From: Comamonadaceae bacterium
GTDB lineage: Bacteria; Pseudomonadota; Gammaproteobacteria; Burkholderiales; Burkholderiaceae_C
Length of the DNA stretch: 35,727 nucleotides
Assembly: GCA_947372425.1 (NCBI GenBank)
Contig: CANBTQ010000004.1
Location: 1 to 35,727 of the forward strand
Reading direction: 5' to 3'
A program made the translations under genes and the position numbers. Every line of letters starts with the position of its first letter. The stretch's first letter is position 1. Below, one piece after another: positions 5,181 through 16,333 of this stretch. The notes under the pieces are model-generated. The model did not search any database and was not told the origin of the DNA. It saw only the letters and a list, made by a program, of their open reading frames with translations.

Positions 5181-8100
5181 GTGCTGCAGCCGACCAGTCC
5201 CATGGCCACCCCGACCCAACGCAAACGCCCCATCACGCGGATCCTGCCGCTGGCCCTGATGTGGCTGGGTATTGCCCTGTGCGGCTACCTGGGAGACACC
5301 CTGGAGAAGCGGGCGCAGCTGGCCTGGAAGGAAGCCGCCGAGCGTGAAACCGCGCTGCAGACCGCCACCCTGCAAGGCTGGATGGACAGCAGCCTGACCA
5401 CCCTGTCCGGCCTGGCCCTGCTGGTGGACAACACCCCCAACCTGGACGCCGACACCTTTCACAGCGCCTCGGACGGGGTGCTGGGACACGCCAAGGCCGA
5501 CCTGATTCCGGAGAAAGCGCTGCTGCTGGACCAGCACGGCCGCTGGGTGACCCGCTACCACGCGGGCGACCCCGGGCAGCCGCGGCTGCTGCCCGCAACG
5601 GGCAGCCCGGCACAGGGCCTGCTGGAACACAGCCTGGGGCTGGCGCGTGAAACCCACAACGCGTGGTTCATGTCCGCACCTTTTGCCGACACCGGCCAGC
5701 GCAAGCATGTCTACCTCGCACTGGTTCCGCACAACCAGCCCGACAAGGCCCTCGTGGCGGTGCTGGACCTGCAAAAGGCAGTGGATAGCTTGCTGGGTGC
5801 AGACAACCTGGCCGGCATCGACCTGGACCTCGAACTCGAACCCGCCGGCGAAGGCGCCAGCAGCGCGCGGCAGGCAGCAGTGTCCAGCAGCACGGTGGTG
5901 TTCGAGCGCAAGACCTGGCTGTTTATTGCCCACACCAAATTCAATTTGCGCTGGCTGGTCGCCAAGCCGTTTGCCGGCGGCGTGGACAAGACGCTCAGCC
6001 GCGCGGTCTGGATCGTGGGCTCGCTGACCAGCCTGCTGCTGGCACTCTACCTGGCCAACCTGCTGACCAAGAACGAACGCATCCAGCAGAAGGTGGACGC
6101 GGCCACCGAAGACCTGCGCCGCAACATGCAGGCGATGGCTGCCAGCGAAGCCCGCCTGCGCCACATTCTGGACAGCAGCCCGCTGGGCATTGCCGTGTCG
6201 GTGGAGGGTGTGGCCCGCATGGCCAACCCGGCCATGAAGACCATGCTGAACGTGGCGGTGGGCGACTTCATCCCCAAACTCTATGTCGATCCCGCCGTGC
6301 GCGACAGCATCCAGCAACGCCTGCAGACCGAGGGCAGCGTACACAGCCTGGAGCTGCAGATGTTCAACCCCGCGGGCGAGGTGCGCGACTTTCTCAGCAC
6401 CTTCATGCAGACCGACCATGCCGGCGAGCAGGCCGTACTGGGCTGGCTGCTCGACATCACCGACATGAAGGCAGCCGAACAGCTGGCGCGCGCGGCCCGG
6501 GACGCGGCCGAAGAGGCCACCCGGGCCAAGTCCGACTTTCTGGCCAATATGAGCCACGAAATCCGCACCCCGATGAACGCCATCATCGGCCTGTCGGGCC
6601 TGGCGCTCAAGAACGACATGCCGCCGCGCATCCAGGACTACCTGCGCAAGATCCGCCAGAGCGGCGAGCACCTGCTGGGCATCATCAACGACATCCTGGA
6701 CTTCTCCAAGGTCGAGTCCGGCAAGCTGGAGATCGAGGCCATTGCCTTTGACCTGGACGCCGTGATCGACAACGTGGTGAACCTGATGTCCAAGAGCGTG
6801 GAGGACAAGGACCTGGAGCTGCTGTGCAGTGTGGCCGCGGCCGTGCCCAAGACCCTGATCGGCGACCCGCTGCGCATCGGCCAGGTCCTGATCAACTACA
6901 CCAACAACGCCGTCAAGTTCACCAAGCAGGGCGAGGTGCAGCTCTCCATCAACGTGCTGGAGCGCAGCGACACCGATATCCTGCTGTACTTCGCGGTGAC
7001 CGACAGCGGCATCGGCCTGAGCGCGGAGCAGATCGGGCGCCTGTTCGGCAGCTTTGTGCAGGCCGACACCTCCACCACCCGCAACTACGGCGGCACCGGC
7101 CTGGGCCTGGCCGTGAGCAAGCGCCTGGCCGAGGCCATGGGCGGCGAGGTGGGCGTGGAAAGTGTGCTGGGCCAGGGCTCCACCTTCTGGTTCACCGCCC
7201 GCCTGGGCCTGGCGCCGCAGGAGCGCACCGCCCAGCTGCCGCGCATCGACCTGCAGGGCAGCCCGGTGCTGGTGGTGGACGACAACGAGACCTCGGCCCT
7301 GATCCTGTCCGAGATGCTCGCCAACATGGGCTTCCCGGTTCACCACGCCAGCTCCGGCCAGGCCGCACTGACCCTGCTGGAGCAGGCCGACCAGAGCGAC
7401 GCCCCCTATGCGTTTGTCATGATGGACTGGCTGATGCCAGGCATGGACGGACTGGAAACCGTGCGCGCCCTGCAGGCCCTGCCGCTGCGCACCATGCCCG
7501 CGGTGCTGATGGTCACGGCGCACCGCCGCCAGGACCTGATCAAGGCGGCCGAGCGGCTGGGCATCGAGCATGTGCTGGCCAAGCCCTTGAGCCATTCCCT
7601 GCTGTTCAACACCATGATGCAGATGCTGGGCCAGTCCGCAGACCCCGACCTGCCGCAGGCCTACCGCAGCCAACCCACCTCACTGGAAACCGCGCTGCAA
7701 GCCCTGGGTGGGGCCCGCATCCTGCTGGTGGAAGACAACGAGATCAACCAGCAGGTGGCCTGCGAAATCCTGCGCGACGCCGGCTTTGTGGTGGATGTGG
7801 CCGAGAACGGCCAGATTGCGGTGCAGAGCGTGGAGGCCCGTGCGGCCGAAGGCCAAGCCTACGACCTGGTGCTGATGGACATGCAAATGCCAGTCATGGA
7901 CGGCGTGACCGCCGCGCGCCTGATCCGCGAGAACCATGGCGCAGACCGCCTGCCGATTGTGGCCATGACGGCCAATGCCATGCAGGCGGACCGCGACCGC
8001 TGCCGCGATGCCGGCATGAACGGCTTTGTGCCCAAGCCCATCAACCAGGACGAACTGTGGCGCGCCCTGCTGGCCAACATCACACCGCGCGCGGGACTGG

Positions 8101-8759
8101 GGCCGGTGCTGCGACCCGTGAGCGACACCCCTGCCGAAACCGACGACCTGTTGCATGCCTTGCGCGGCATCCCCGGGCTGGACCCGGACCAGGGCCTGTT
8201 GCGCACTGGCGGCAACCCGGCCTTTTACGCCTCGCTGCTGAAGAAGTTTGTTGCCTCCCAGGAAGACGCGATGCAGCGCGTGCAGCTGGCCTTGCAGGCC
8301 GCCGACCCGCCCACGGCAGAGCGGCACGCCCACACCCTCAAGGGCGTGGCCGCCAGCCTGGGCGCCCCTGTGCTGCAGCAGGAGGCCGGCGAACTCGAGA
8401 ACAGGCTGCGTCGCCATGCCAGTGCGGCGGACCTGCAGGCGGCCATTGACCGCACCACGCTGCAGCTCGACAGCCTGATGCAGGCCCTGCGGGAGGCGCC
8501 CGGTCTGCTCAACCACCCGGTGGCCCGGGCCAACCAGCTGAGCGAGGCCGACCGCATCGCAACCCGCAACATTGCCACCCGGATCAAGCGCCTGTTGCAG
8601 CTCGACGACGCGCAGGCCGTGGCCCTGTGGGAAAGCCATGCCCCGCAGCTGCGGGCCCTGTATGCCGATGCATCCCGCATCGAAGAAGCCATTGGCGCCT
8701 TTGAGTTTGAAACCGCCCACACCCTGCTCGAAGCCAGCGCAGAACACGCCACGGCATGA
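5181..8759 (+). CDS. Membrane hybrid sensor histidine kinase (HK-HATPase-REC-REC-Hpt)
   Basis: TM segments at both ends of an extracytoplasmic region; H box [18 protein letters not shown]; HATPase motifs; receiver 1 [10 protein letters not shown]...[11 protein letters not shown]; receiver 2 [12 protein letters not shown]...[11 protein letters not shown]; Hpt-like [17 protein letters not shown] start at 5181, alternative ATG at 5202. Confidence 0.93.
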
Positions 8760-8783: not shown

Positions 8784-9872
8784 CTAACAGTCCAGCACCA
8801 GGTTGCCCTGCGGGCGCGAGCAGCAGGCCAGCAGCCAGCCGGCCGCCACGTCCTCGTCGGTGATGCCACCGTTTTGCAGCATGTGCACCGCGCCCTCGAG
8901 CTTCTTCACCTTGCAGGTGCCACAGACGCCAAACAGGCAGGCGCTCGGAATGCTGAGCCCCGCCGCGCGCGCCACGTCCAGCACGGTCTGGGTGCCGCTG
9001 CATTGCGCCTCACGCCCGGAGGCGGCAAAGCGCACGGTGGAAGTCTGCGCGCTGGCTACTTGTTCGTCGGCATGCGCGCGGGCTTCGGCATCCACATGCA
9101 CCGGCACCTGGAAGCTCTCCTCGTGGTAGCGCGCCATGTCGAAGCCGGCGGCCTGCAGAATGCCGCGCACCGCCTTCATGTAGGGCTCGGGGCCGCAGCA
9201 GAAGATTTCGCGCTCAAAGTAGTCCGGCGCAATCAGCTCCAGCATCAGCTGGTTGAGGCGCCCGCTGTAACCGGTCCAGGCGCCAAACGGGTTGGGCTTT
9301 TCGCAGACCAGGGCGACGCGGAATTCCGACACGCGGGCGCTGATGGCCTCCAACTCGCTGCGAAACAGCAGGTCGGAAGGTGTGCGCGCGCACTGCACAA
9401 AGCACACATCGGTATGCCGCCCCTGGTCGAACAGCCAGCGCGTCATGGACATCAGCGGCGTGATGCCCACACCGCCGGCCAGAAACAGGTATTTGGGTGC
9501 CGGGCGGTGCTGCACGCTGAACACACCCGACGGCCCGCGCGCCTGCACATGGTCGCCCACCTGCAGGTGCTGGTGCAGCCAGTTGGAGACCTTGCCACCG
9601 GGCTCGGCCTTGACGGTAATCGTCAGGCAGACCGGGCGCGACGGGCTGGACGAGAGCGTGTAGCAACGTGTGTGCGGCACGCCGTCAATCTCCACCTTCA
9701 GGGTGATGAACTGGCCGGCCTGGTAACGAAACCAGGACGGCTGCTCGGTCTGGAAGCAAAAGGTTTTGACGTCGGCGCTGTCGGCCAGAATCATGGTGCA
9801 GGTCAGGCGCTCGGCCTCGCTGTCCCAGGGCTTGATGGCGTCCGTGTCCCGCGGTTTGAGGATAGCGTTCAT
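8784..9872 (-). CDS. Hybrid ferredoxin reductase (FAD/NAD(P)H plus C-terminal 2Fe-2S), GbcB-like oxygenase reductase
   Basis: FAD-binding RCYTLSSSP, NAD-binding FLAGGVGITPLMSM, FCCGPEPYM, and C-terminal plant-type 2Fe-2S motif CLFGVCGTCKVKK...LLACCSRP. 11 bp downstream of the Rieske oxygenase gene on the same strand. Confidence 0.88.
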   Translation of the reverse strand: MNAILKPRDTDAIKPWDSEAERLTCTMILADSADVKTFCFQTEQPSWFRYQAGQFITLKVEIDGVPHTRCYTLSSSPSRPVCLTITVKAEPGGKVSNWLHQHLQVGDHVQARGPSGVFSVQHRPAPKYLFLAGGVGITPLMSMTRWLFDQGRHTDVCFVQCARTPSDLLFRSELEAISARVSEFRVALVCEKPNPFGAWTGYSGRLNQLMLELIAPDYFEREIFCCGPEPYMKAVRGILQAAGFDMARYHEESFQVPVHVDAEARAHADEQVASAQTSTVRFAASGREAQCSGTQTVLDVARAAGLSIPSACLFGVCGTCKVKKLEGAVHMLQNGGITDEDVAAGWLLACCSRPQGNLVLDC

Positions 9873-9883
9873 GCGGCCCGCCC

Positions 9884-11146
9884 CTATGCCGCGCGGTGGA
9901 TGGGAATCACGGCGGCATCGCGCTGCGGCGCTTCCATCTGCGCCATCTGGCCGGTGTACCAGTCGATGAAGTTCTGCACGCCAAACTCAATCGTCTGTGA
10001 ATACGGGCCGGGCACATAGGCCTTGCTGTTGATGCCAGCCTGGTTGTTCTCGGCCAGGATGCGGTCCTGGTCATTGGTGGCGGCCCAGACCTGCATCATC
10101 TCTTCAGGTTTGTAGTCCACGCCTTCCTGCGCGTCCTTGTTGACCAGCCACCAGGTGGTGACCTGGGTCAGCTGCGGGCCCAGCGGCAGCACACGGAAGG
10201 CAATCGCATGGTCACTCTGCAAATGGTTCCAGGAGTTGGGCAGGTTGAGCATGCGCACCGAACCCAGGTCGGCGCTTTGCAAGTTGCCCAACAGCTTGTT
10301 GACAGCGGGCTTGCCGTCCATGGTCATGGACTCGCCCTGGGCCAGCGGCAGGCGCACCACGCGGAAACGTTTGTCGGGCGAATTTTGCGAGGCGTGCGGC
10401 AGGCCCTGCGCGTCCCATTCGGCCGCCTTGGCGTGGATGCGCGCGGCAAAAGCGGGCGGCATGCGCGGGTCATCGGTGCTGTCGTATTCGGACAGGGTGC
10501 GCAGCAATTCGGGGTGCGCGCCGGTGCAGTGGTAGCACTCGCGGTTGTTCTCGATCACCAGCTTCCAGTTGGCTTGTTCCACCAGCGTGGAGCTGCAGGC
10601 CACCTTGGCGTTCTTCAAATCGTGCGGCAGCATATAGGGCTCGACCATGCGGGCGAAGGCTTCGAAGTCGGGCGCCTCGTCGGCCAGGCAGACATAGACA
10701 TAGCCGCCCACGCTGCGGCAATGCGCCTGCTTCAGAGAGAAGTCTGCGGCCTTGAAGTCCGGGCCCATTTCGCGCGCAAACAGCAGGCGGCCGTCGAGCT
10801 CATAGGTCCACTGGTGGTAAGGGCAGACCAGCTTGGCGGCCTTGCCCTCCTCGCCGATGCAGACCTTGGAGCCGCGGTGCCGGCAGGTGTTGTAGAAGGC
10901 GCGCACCACGTTGTCGGCACCACGCACGATCACCAGCGAGGTCGGGCCCACTTCCATGGTGAACCAGTTGCCACTCGCGGGCGCGGCGCACTCGGGTCCG
11001 GCAAACAGCCAGTTGCGGTACCAGATCTGCTCCAGGTCGAGCTGGTGGAAATCGGCGTCGCCATAAAAGGGCTGGGGCAGGCTGTAGTCGGGGCGGCGCG
11101 TGGCCAGCAGCTGCGCCATGCGGGTGCGGGGGGATTCTGGGTTCAC
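9884..11146 (-). CDS. Rieske non-heme iron oxygenase alpha subunit, GbcA-like (glycine betaine / quaternary amine monooxygenase family)
   Basis: Rieske motif CRHRGSKVCIGEEGKAAKLVCPYHQWTYELDGRL and mononuclear Fe site region ENNRECYHCTGAHPELL. GTG start at 11146 with GGAAGG Shine-Dalgarno. Substrate assignment is inference. Confidence 0.87.
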   Translation of the reverse strand: MNPESPRTRMAQLLATRRPDYSLPQPFYGDADFHQLDLEQIWYRNWLFAGPECAAPASGNWFTMEVGPTSLVIVRGADNVVRAFYNTCRHRGSKVCIGEEGKAAKLVCPYHQWTYELDGRLLFAREMGPDFKAADFSLKQAHCRSVGGYVYVCLADEAPDFEAFARMVEPYMLPHDLKNAKVACSSTLVEQANWKLVIENNRECYHCTGAHPELLRTLSEYDSTDDPRMPPAFAARIHAKAAEWDAQGLPHASQNSPDKRFRVVRLPLAQGESMTMDGKPAVNKLLGNLQSADLGSVRMLNLPNSWNHLQSDHAIAFRVLPLGPQLTQVTTWWLVNKDAQEGVDYKPEEMMQVWAATNDQDRILAENNQAGINSKAYVPGPYSQTIEFGVQNFIDWYTGQMAQMEAPQRDAAVIPIHRAA

Positions 11147-11154
11147 AACGGTTT

Positions 11155-11194
11155 CCTTCCGGTCAGGTCAAAAATTCGGAGACCATGAAGAAGG
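11155..11194 (-). promoter_or_regulatory. Candidate Shine-Dalgarno-sequestering hairpin (possible riboswitch expression platform)
   Basis: On the minus strand CCTTC (11190-11194) is complementary to GAAGG (11155-11159), part of the GGAAGG SD. An inner GGTC/GACC pairing lies between them. Confidence 0.4.
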
Positions 11195-11273
11195 GCGCTG
11201 GCACAACACGGACGCGCAGGCATCCGCATGGCGACCGCGCGACCACCCTCCGTAGTCCGGCTACTGGTGCACA

Positions 11274-11460
11274 CGCGGGCTGGTTTACGGACTGGCGCAC
11301 GGCACCGGCTGTCTTACCGGTGCTGTAGGCGTTGACCTTCCCGGGCGGACCCAGTGGTTTGCTTGAACGCCGCTTGCTGCGCTTACCGTTGCGGGGGCAG
11401 TTCCGGCATTTCACCGGCTTCCCATTTAACCGGGTTGATGCCCGGAACCTGCGTCTGCCC
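11274..11460 (-). ncRNA. Cobalamin (B12) riboswitch
   Basis: Minus strand reads GGTTCCGGGCATCAACCCGGTTAAATGGGAAGCCGGTGAAATGCCGGAACTGCCCCCGCAACGGTAAGCG...CCACTGGGTCCGCCCGGGAAGG...CGCCAGTCCGTAAACCAGCCCGCG. This has the hallmark GGGAA..CCGGTGAAA..CCGGAACTGCCCCCGCAACGGTAA core, CCACTGG, GGGAAGG and a B12 box-like AGTCCGTAAACCAGCC. Confidence 0.93.
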
Positions 11461-11571
11461 CGCTCTTGCGAACGGGCATGGCACAAAGTTTAGGCGGCGT
11501 GCAGCTTCCGGCGCCACGGTGCTGCGACCCTGGCTTATGCGGACCCGACAAGCCCGCCAAGCGCTGCCGCT

Positions 11572-12828
11572 TCAGGGTAAAAACCCGTCGTTCAGCGTGT
11601 TGAGAAAGGCCACCACATCGGCCACCTGTGCCGGGCTCAGCACCGGTCCGGCATTGGCCGGGTTGTTGAACGGGGGCTTGCGGGTTTCCAGATTGGCCTG
11701 GTACTGCGCCGGCAAATCGTTGGGGATGCCGGCGGCACCATACCAGCGCTGCGGGTCGGTGTTGCGAGTGGCGTAAAAGCTCACCACATCGGTCAGGTTG
11801 CTAAAAAATCCGTTGTGCATCAGCGCCGGGCGCTTGCCTGCATTGCGCAGGCTGGGCACCTGGAAGGCACCGCACAGGCTGCTGGCAGTCACGCCGGCCG
11901 GCAGCACCGGCGGCGTGCGCTCCGGGCCGCACAAGCCCAGGTCAAAAAAGCCCGCCACGGCATTCGCCGGGATGCGTGTGTTGCGCGGAATGCCTTCCAC
12001 CGTGTAGTTGTGGTTGGTGAACAGCGAGTCGCGCGGATTGCCGCTGCCGGGGTTGAGCCGGTGGCAGCCGGCACAGCCCACGCGCGGGTTCTGGAACAGC
12101 GCCAGTCCGCTTTGTTCGGCCGCCGTGAAGCTGGCTTTGCCCAACACCACCGCGTCGTATTTGGAGCTGAAGGCATCGAAGCTGCCGGCCGATTCAAAGG
12201 CCTGGATGGCCTGGCCGATCTGTGCCAGGGCCTGCGTCGGGTTGCTGAGTGCGGCCGCACCAAACAGCGCCGTGAACTGGCGCGCGTAGCCCGCCGCAGC
12301 CACCTTGCTGACCAGCGTGGTAGCGTCGGCGTTGTTCATCTCCAGCGGGTTCATGAAAGGCAGCAGGGCCTGCTGCGCCAGCGTGTCGGCACGGCCGTCC
12401 CAGAACTGGCCGCCGGCCGGAATCAGGTTGCCCTGCGGCGTGGTGACAAAGCCGAAGCGGGGATTCTCGGAACTGTAGGCCGCCTGCGAAGGCGCGCGCA
12501 GCCCGATGGAGGTAGGCAGGCTGCCGCGCGCCACGCCCAGGGTCGAGCCGTTCAGGCTGGAGAAGCCGCTGACCGCCTGGTGGCAGGACGCGCAGGCCGT
12601 GCCGGGCGGCGTGGACAAATTGGTGTCGTTGAAGAGCGCCTGGCCCAGCGCGCGCAGGCTGGTCTGTGTGGCCGCCAGCGCAGCGGCCTGTTGGGCCTCG
12701 GCATTGACCGTGGCCGCAGCACCCGTGTCGCTACCACCGCCCCCGCCACCACAGCCGCACAGGCCCAGCAAGGCCGCCACCACCACCGCAAACCACCGGA
12801 ACCCGGCACCCGAATCAGGCATGTGCAT
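11572..12828 (-). CDS. Di-heme cytochrome c peroxidase / MauG-family lipoprotein
   Basis: Two CXXCH motifs (CASCHQAVSG, CAGCHRLNPG), lipobox-like LCGC followed by Gly-rich linker, and LFNDTNLSTPPGTACASCH. Confidence 0.9.
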   Translation of the reverse strand: MHMPDSGAGFRWFAVVVAALLGLCGCGGGGGGSDTGAAATVNAEAQQAAALAATQTSLRALGQALFNDTNLSTPPGTACASCHQAVSGFSSLNGSTLGVARGSLPTSIGLRAPSQAAYSSENPRFGFVTTPQGNLIPAGGQFWDGRADTLAQQALLPFMNPLEMNNADATTLVSKVAAAGYARQFTALFGAAALSNPTQALAQIGQAIQAFESAGSFDAFSSKYDAVVLGKASFTAAEQSGLALFQNPRVGCAGCHRLNPGSGNPRDSLFTNHNYTVEGIPRNTRIPANAVAGFFDLGLCGPERTPPVLPAGVTASSLCGAFQVPSLRNAGKRPALMHNGFFSNLTDVVSFYATRNTDPQRWYGAAGIPNDLPAQYQANLETRKPPFNNPANAGPVLSPAQVADVVAFLNTLNDGFLP

Positions 12829-15016: not shown

Positions 15017-15214
15017 TGCCTAATGCGGACAGCCGATTTGGTTACGTCGCTTCGGCTTGGGCCTTATCGGCGTGGCGTCCTGAGTCAGTGGGTGCCGTGC
15101 GCAAGCCCAAACGCGTCGCTCGGTGTGCCAACAACACGCGCTAACCCAAACCATAATCGCAGGCAAGCCATCTATTGCTGGCGTTCACCAACCCATTCGC
15201 ACCAAGGAAATCCC

Positions 15215-16333
15215 ATGCAAACCAAAGCCGCCGTCGCCTGGAAAGCCGGCCAACCCCTGACCATTGAAACCGTTGACCTGGCCGGCCCGCGCGTGGGCGA
15301 GGTGCTGGTCGAAATCAAGGCCAGCGGCATCTGCCATACCGACTACTACACGCTCAGTGGCGCCGACCCCGAAGGCATCTTCCCGACCATCCTGGGCCAC
15401 GAAGGCGCGGGCATCGTGGTCGATGTGGGGCCGGGTGTCACCTCGCTCAAAAAGGGCGACCACGTGATTCCGCTGTACACGCCCGAATGCCGGGGCTGCA
15501 AGTTCTGCCTGAGCCGCAAGACCAACCTGTGCCAGCTGATTCGTGGCACGCAAGGCAAGGGTCTGATGCCGGATGCCACCAGCCGCTTCAGCCTGAACGG
15601 CGACCCGATCTTCCACTACATGGGCACCAGCACCTTTAGCAACTTCACGGTGGTACCGGAAATTGCGCTGGCCAAGATCCGCCCGGACGCGCCCTTTGAC
15701 AAGGTCTGCTACATCGGCTGCGGCGTCACCACCGGCATTGGCGCCGTGATCTTCACGGCCAAGGTGGAAGCCGGTGCCAACGCGGTGGTGTTTGGCCTGG
15801 GCGGTATCGGCCTGAACGTGATCCAGGGCCTGAAGATGGTGGGCGCCGACAAGATCATCGGTGTCGATCTGAACCCGGCGCGCGAAGCCATGGCACGCCA
15901 GTTCGGCATGACGCACTTCCTGAACCCGAAGGACATTGAGGCGGCGGGTGGCAACATCGTCGATGCCATTACCCAACTCACCGACGGCGGCGCCGACTAC
16001 AGCTTTGAATGCATTGGCAACACCCAGGTGATGCGCCAGGCGCTGGAGTGCACGCACAAGGGCTGGGGCCGCAGCATCATCATCGGCGTGGCCGAGGCCG
16101 GTGCCGAAATCAGCACCCGCCCGTTTCAGTTGGTGACGGGCCGCAAGTGGGAAGGCTCGGCCTTTGGCGGCGCCCGCGGCCGCACCGATGTGCCCAAGAT
16201 CGTGGACTGGTACATGGAGGGCAAGATCAACATCGACAGCCTGATCACCCACACCATGCCGCTGGAAGACATCAACAAGGGCTTTGACCTGATGAAGCGC
16301 GGCGAGTCCATCCGCGGCGTGGTGCTGTTCTAA
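15215..16333 (+). CDS. adhC/frmA: S-(hydroxymethyl)glutathione dehydrogenase / class III alcohol dehydrogenase (formaldehyde detoxification)
   Basis: [68 protein letters not shown]...[34 protein letters not shown]. Zn-binding Cys cluster. ATG 15215 preceded by AAGGAAA. Confidence 0.96.

Follow-up and report, generated by a model that had tools for sequence, protein, structure and literature searches.

Ribonucleotide reductase is one B12-independent enzyme under cobalamin-riboswitch repression. For another, the B12-independent methionine synthase encoded by metE, such repression is in line with use of MetH (PMC9600662). The glycine betaine monooxygenase GbcAB is known from Pseudomonas and Chromohalobacter through work cited in PMC12478193. 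In Ruegeria pomeroyi, MtgBCDE was shown genetically to be a corrinoid betaine demethylase/methionine synthase, a route described as belonging to bacteria without GbcAB (PMC12478193). Here we analyse 35,727 nucleotides from a Comamonadaceae bacterium (contig CANBTQ010000004.1, positions 1 to 35,727; hereafter the window), in which a cobalamin riboswitch precedes a gbcAB-like operon. The riboswitch, the operon, their conservation, the recurrence of the arrangement on a second gbcAB lineage and a corrinoid pathway residing in the same genomes were all established by computation. We consider it probable, judging from the sequences, that B12 represses this GbcAB and that the enzyme, which would need O2 and no B12, is the counterpart of the corrinoid-dependent demethylation of betaine carried out by MtgB, MtgC and MtgD.

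A cobalamin riboswitch in front of a gbcAB-like operon

When the whole window was scanned with cmscan, a single Rfam match was obtained, RF00174 (Cobalamin), at 11467-11261 on the minus strand. Its score is 98.2 bits (E 1.5e-23; gathering score 31.5), and it covers model positions 1-189, that is, the full length. The initial annotation had noticed a riboswitch core and a B12 box on the minus strand, and this Infernal check bears it out, both the canonical core CUGCCCCCGCAACGGUAAG and the B12 box CCACUGG being seen in the alignment. The aptamer with its B12 box (11261..11467, minus strand) has a class I layout with a large peripheral domain. Of the extent first proposed for the feature, the start at 8784 stands, and the end at 11460 has to be moved to 11467, since it cuts 7 bases off the aptamer.

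The aptamer ends 114 bases before the GTG start of a gene for a GbcA-like Rieske oxygenase (9884..11146, minus strand, 420 aa), by homology the oxygenase component of a glycine betaine N-demethylase. The gene of a GbcB-like ferredoxin reductase, the electron transfer component (8784..9872, minus strand, 362 aa), begins 11 bp downstream; the two open reading frames (ORFs) are as first described. Pfam domains are Rieske and Ring_hydroxyl_A in the oxygenase and FAD_binding_6, NAD_binding_1 and Fer2 in the reductase. The top NCBIfam models, of the NF058607/NF058606 pair, are GbcA (614.8 bits) and GbcB (422.7 bits), respectively. Intact Rieske CxH/CxxH and ENNRECYHC motifs occur in the oxygenase, its Rieske and mononuclear-iron motifs being located at 88, 199 and 357 of the protein, which is 54-60% identical to GbcA of Halomonas and Pseudomonas. 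At 26 diagnostic positions of the catalytic domain it agrees with gammaproteobacterial GbcA at 15 and with Burkholderiales homologues at 3. The operon product is predicted to be an O2- and NADH-dependent quaternary-amine N-demethylase, its substrate being most likely glycine betaine.

Searching a genome collection with the oxygenase, we found the closest relative in Rhodoferax lacus (87% identity), followed by GbcA proteins that are nearly all gammaproteobacterial (51-60%). R. lacus carries a riboswitch in the same position before gbcAB (110.7 bits), and its core, its B12 box and its distance from the GTG start are all kept. The two aptamers are 82.5% identical; identity of the window aptamer to the other riboswitches of the genus that were compared stays below 41%. 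Maximum-likelihood phylogeny places the oxygenases of the window and R. lacus together as the sister of the gammaproteobacterial GbcA clade, outside it (support 92/85).

Among 103 genomes of the genus, 97 contain cobalamin riboswitches. Where the downstream genes were read, the matches lie mostly before TonB receptors, cobT/bluB-type or cbi genes. Among the matches read in this way, only three precede gbcAB, in three of the 103 genomes: the window's own genome (G000, a 77%-complete metagenome-assembled genome), R. lacus (G360) and a third Rhodoferax genome, G375. Aptamers before gbcAB in the three are full length and score 79-111 bits. The synteny survey thus extends the arrangement past the source genome, with conservation in R. 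lacus and recurrence in G375. Since every other riboswitch in these genomes precedes a TonB receptor gene or a cbiX/cbiD operon, gbcAB is their sole riboswitch target outside B12 acquisition. Rfam scans covered about 50 gbcA-like loci of Burkholderiales, Gamma- and Alphaproteobacteria, and the only riboswitches among them were those of the three Rhodoferax genomes. Loci L004-L104 were also scanned with a looser pattern, which added nothing except one poor match in L010, whose oxygenase is 33% identical. A wider taxonomic association of riboswitch and gbcA was dropped on these grounds.

In G375 the riboswitch precedes a rather different gbcAB-like pair, its oxygenase being 50% and its reductase 43% identical to those of the window. 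The riboswitch itself is compact (157 nt) and devoid of a B12 box, which the window and R. lacus forms possess. The G375 oxygenase groups in the tree with Stc2, with 3n0q and with an Alloyangia protein, and a single clade of the three riboswitch-linked GbcAs is rejected (p-AU 9e-15). B12 control of gbcAB may therefore either have two origins or have outlasted an exchange of the coding genes. With only one 10-base word shared by the leaders beyond the aptamer, gene replacement is indistinguishable from independent recruitment.

This word, TCCGTGTTGT (11203..11212, minus strand, in the window), is identical in the R. lacus and G375 leaders (L025 and L154). It sits about 75-87 bases past the AACCAG of the aptamer in all three leaders and did not turn up behind any other riboswitch that was examined. 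It is only weakly above chance, shuffles equalling its score in 2.6% and 6.2% of cases; with similarity confined to one 10-mer, the window and G375 leaders were not taken to be homologous past the aptamer. Between the word and the gene lies a putative hairpin (11155..11194, minus strand) that would sequester the Shine-Dalgarno sequence, CCUUCU (11194-11189) pairing with GGAAGG (11160-11155), and which we propose as a translational OFF element. Its minimum free energy is -17.6 kcal/mol (z -2.5). The Shine-Dalgarno sequences of R. lacus and G375 are likewise paired in hairpins with U-rich loops, made of different bases. One weak terminator-like site was found against 0.9 expected; with no convincing intrinsic terminator, this kind of expression platform was set aside.

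As to the surroundings, the operon is convergent with a plus-strand ORF at 5181-8759, and no B12 genes adjoin the oxygenase gene in the window. A gene for S-(hydroxymethyl)glutathione dehydrogenase, an enzyme of formaldehyde detoxification, lies at 15023..16333 on the plus strand (TIGR02818, 612 bits against a cut-off of 544). An apparently homologous ORF, recognised by its N-terminal sequence, is found near the riboswitch and gbcAB of R. lacus (L155 8477-9595, minus strand). On the same strand as the riboswitch, a di-haem cytochrome c peroxidase gene (MauG/MbnH-like, 11572-12828, minus strand) ends about 100 bases 5' of it. Elsewhere in the genus, a cobalamin riboswitch of 102.7 bits precedes a hotdog-fold thioesterase gene in G001 (L134 / L156 12203-12410, minus strand), with mesX and a mesD-like gene about 3 kb beyond the latter. 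In G364 and G015 (L139, L140) a gene for a radical-SAM protein has one in front of it, and nearby lies a bluB-like gene led by a riboswitch of its own.

The corrinoid-dependent betaine route in the same genomes

We next turn to the MttB family (PF06253), which comprises corrinoid-dependent quaternary-amine methyltransferases. The window's genome carries 3 copies, R. lacus 5 and G375 4, with several sequence classes in each. MttB is absent from all four members of the genus with riboswitch-free gbcA-like genes and occurs in 2 of 50 further GbcA-bearing genomes. Genomes with riboswitch-linked gbcAB differ in this respect from those without (3/3 versus 2/54, Fisher p 3.4e-4), and the difference is also seen within the genus (3/3 versus 0/4, p 0.029). 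Rhodoferax-group genomes hold up to 7 MttB genes each, belonging to at least four sequence classes.

R. lacus and G375 possess a corrinoid betaine cluster consisting of betA, betB, the genes of B12-binding MtgC, a DUF1638 protein, pterin-binding MtgD, RACo, MtgE and MtgB, and soxB. The same cluster holds a transporter-like set and an AraC/DJ-1 regulator resembling GbdR, through which the gbcAB operon of Pseudomonas is induced by betaine. Its sox, glyA, sdaA, folD and purU genes were assigned by reading the sequence; most of the family scans used the copies from G375. Nearest solved structures to MtgB include 'Glycine betaine methyltransferase' 9yce. A contig of the window's genome keeps the R. 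lacus gene order and encodes an MtgB C-terminus near-identical to that of R. lacus. A B12-dependent counterpart is hence encoded in all three genomes with riboswitch-linked gbcAB, complete as a cluster in R. lacus and G375, and as a fragment in the window's genome. By their homology to GbcA and MtgB, the two enzymes may share their substrate.

Other Rieske oxygenase genes were also seen beside MttB genes. In R. lacus (L238 7448-11496) one such gene, together with a reductase gene, adjoins an MttB gene. In G035 (L257 5267-13042) two Rieske oxygenase genes, a LysR regulator and OYE-family enzymes are located beside one. Judging from these neighbourhoods, the pairing of an O2-dependent with a corrinoid route of demethylation may be widespread in the genus.

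Proposed B12 control of betaine demethylation and its alternatives

By analogy with other proteobacterial cobalamin riboswitches, the likeliest behaviour of the present leader is that bound cobalamin represses translation of gbcA; the response to the ligand, its OFF direction, the translational mechanism and the substrate are all what we infer. When cobalamin is plentiful, it would bind the leader RNA, the helix hiding the gbcA ribosome-binding site would form, and GbcAB would be off, so that betaine methyl groups would pass via MtgC to tetrahydrofolate (THF). When cobalamin is scarce, the ribosome-binding site would be open and GbcAB would take over betaine demethylation, releasing the methyl group as formaldehyde. 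This by-product would plausibly be dealt with by the nearby glutathione-dependent dehydrogenase. Use of GbcAB at low cobalamin would also spare corrinoid for MetH.

The initial annotation had proposed that the oxygenase may be an O2-dependent, B12-independent counterpart of a corrinoid-dependent step, such as demethylation of glycine betaine or a related amine. Support for this comes from the retention of the riboswitch before gbcAB in R. lacus and its recurrence in G375 with a different gbcAB and a different riboswitch. It also comes from the corrinoid betaine route encoded in the same genomes, MttB being found in just two of the 54 riboswitch-free GbcA genomes. On balance, we lean towards the more general view of a further B12-dependent/B12-independent enzyme pair, in which a cobalamin-riboswitch RNA selects either corrinoid methyl transfer or demethylation with O2 in the catabolism of betaine and perhaps of other quaternary amines, the RNA having become attached to two gbcAB lineages in two riboswitch kinds.

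Several observations weigh against B12-repressed GbcAB as the counterpart of the corrinoid betaine route. The linkage is known from three genomes only, and the hairpin z-scores of R. lacus (-1.58) and G375 (-1.12) are modest. The contrast with 2/54 is confounded by taxonomy. MttB occurs in 55 of the 103 genomes of the genus, so the 3/3 is weak when taken alone. Nitrincola alkalilacustris (L030, L256) combines MtgB and an MtgBCD-like cluster with a gbcAB that lacks a riboswitch; the pairing is therefore not obligatory and other regulation can serve. Alloyangia likewise has gbcA and MttB without a riboswitch. A perfect link between riboswitch and MttB is weakened by these exceptions and by the frequency of MttB in the genus. 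No member of the MetE/MesD family (PF01717) was found in the window's genome, R. lacus or G375, which speaks against MesD/MesX as the B12-independent partner. GbcAB alone would therefore not give full B12 independence, and the benefit may be B12 sparing for MetH instead. Finally, neither protein reaches its NCBIfam equivalog cut-off (670 for GbcA, 500 for GbcB), and the Stc2 with which the G375 oxygenase groups was crystallised as a demethylase; another betaine could thus be the substrate. R. lacus GbcA is also under the cut-off (628.3 against 670).

These last points bear on a possible, if tentative, alternative in which the switch logic is the same, the substrate is another quaternary amine, for instance proline betaine (stachydrine), and the counterpart is another MttB paralogue. 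The sub-threshold GbcA score, the grouping of the G375 enzyme with Stc2 and 3n0q and the several MttB classes in each of the three genomes all agree with it, as does a non-MtgB MttB beside an OYE-family oxidoreductase in G375, 22 kb from gbcAB. Against this, the window and R. lacus enzymes are sisters of gammaproteobacterial GbcA, characterised in Pseudomonas and Chromohalobacter, their diagnostic residues favour that type over the Burkholderiales one by 15 to 3, and a betaine cluster with betAB, MtgBCDE and sox is present. We regard as unlikely that the operon, rather than standing in for the corrinoid demethylase, supplies one-carbon units under B12 stress, betaine-derived formaldehyde being turned into methyl-THF for MetH. 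In G375 a split metH, its homocysteine domain first and then the pterin, B12 and activation domains, does follow gbcAB by 73 bp on the same strand (L154 13175-17083), and because of this position B12 may also affect MetH expression there. The lack of MetE/MesD noted above fits as well. Extra methyl-THF would, however, be useless while B12 limits MetH, GbcAB would compete with any direct betaine:homocysteine transfer, and metH is not beside gbcAB in the window or in R. lacus.

It is quite improbable that a mere regulatory leftover or passenger stands here in front of an oxygenase with no B12-linked role, even though the linkage occurs in just 3/103 genomes of the genus and related gbcAB operons elsewhere lack a riboswitch. 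The aptamers are full length and well scoring in three genomes, the R. lacus and window copies have retained core, B12 box and GTG spacing at 82.5% identity, a second gbcAB lineage shows the arrangement too, and the remaining riboswitches of these genomes precede only genes of B12 uptake or synthesis. A chance or leftover riboswitch was rejected on score, conservation and recurrence. The initial annotation had further entertained action of the oxygenase on a corrinoid-related compound. Chemistry on a corrinoid or B12 precursor, for instance oxidation of the corrin ring or a reaction at the lower ligand, would agree with the riboswitch control typical of B12 synthesis and salvage genes. This idea found no support and is hardly credible for an enzyme with 54-60% identity to Halomonas and Pseudomonas GbcA and no adjoining B12 genes.

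Comparison with known systems

The choices between enzymes that cobalamin riboswitches are known to make involve, for the most part, methionine synthase and ribonucleotide reductase. If the proposed control is real, the principle extends to catabolism of a major osmolyte, in which retention of the methyl group as methyl-THF or its loss as formaldehyde would depend on the supply of B12. The response to B12 scarcity of aerobic freshwater bacteria that possess corrinoid demethylases becomes directly testable, R. lacus, a cultured isolate, being a usable test organism for the B12 choice in betaine catabolism. That a riboswitch can repress a B12-independent enzyme is well established in the case of metE; for a betaine demethylase, a literature search of incomplete coverage found no report linking cobalamin riboswitch, Rieske oxygenase and betaine.

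As with metE and MetH (PMC9600662), a riboswitch here precedes the gene of a B12-independent enzyme whose B12-dependent counterpart is encoded in the same genome. Unlike in that system, control would fall on a Rieske oxygenase of catabolism, and the methyl group ends up in different products, as formaldehyde by one counterpart and as methyl-THF by the other. With GbcAB of Pseudomonas and Chromohalobacter (cited in PMC12478193), the window operon shares the two-gene Rieske oxygenase and ferredoxin-reductase layout, oxygenase identity of 54-60% and the same motifs. By contrast, the GbcAB loci of this known type that we checked have no cobalamin riboswitch, and their genomes almost never contain MttB. 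The Stc2 stachydrine demethylase (3vca) is the neighbour of the G375 oxygenase in the tree, whereas the window and R. lacus oxygenases fall beside gammaproteobacterial GbcA instead. The R. lacus and G375 clusters resemble Ruegeria pomeroyi in their matching MtgB, MtgC, MtgD, MtgE, DUF1638 and RACo-type activation proteins. Unlike that organism, the Rhodoferax genomes also encode a GbcAB headed by a riboswitch, and G375 keeps a split MetH.

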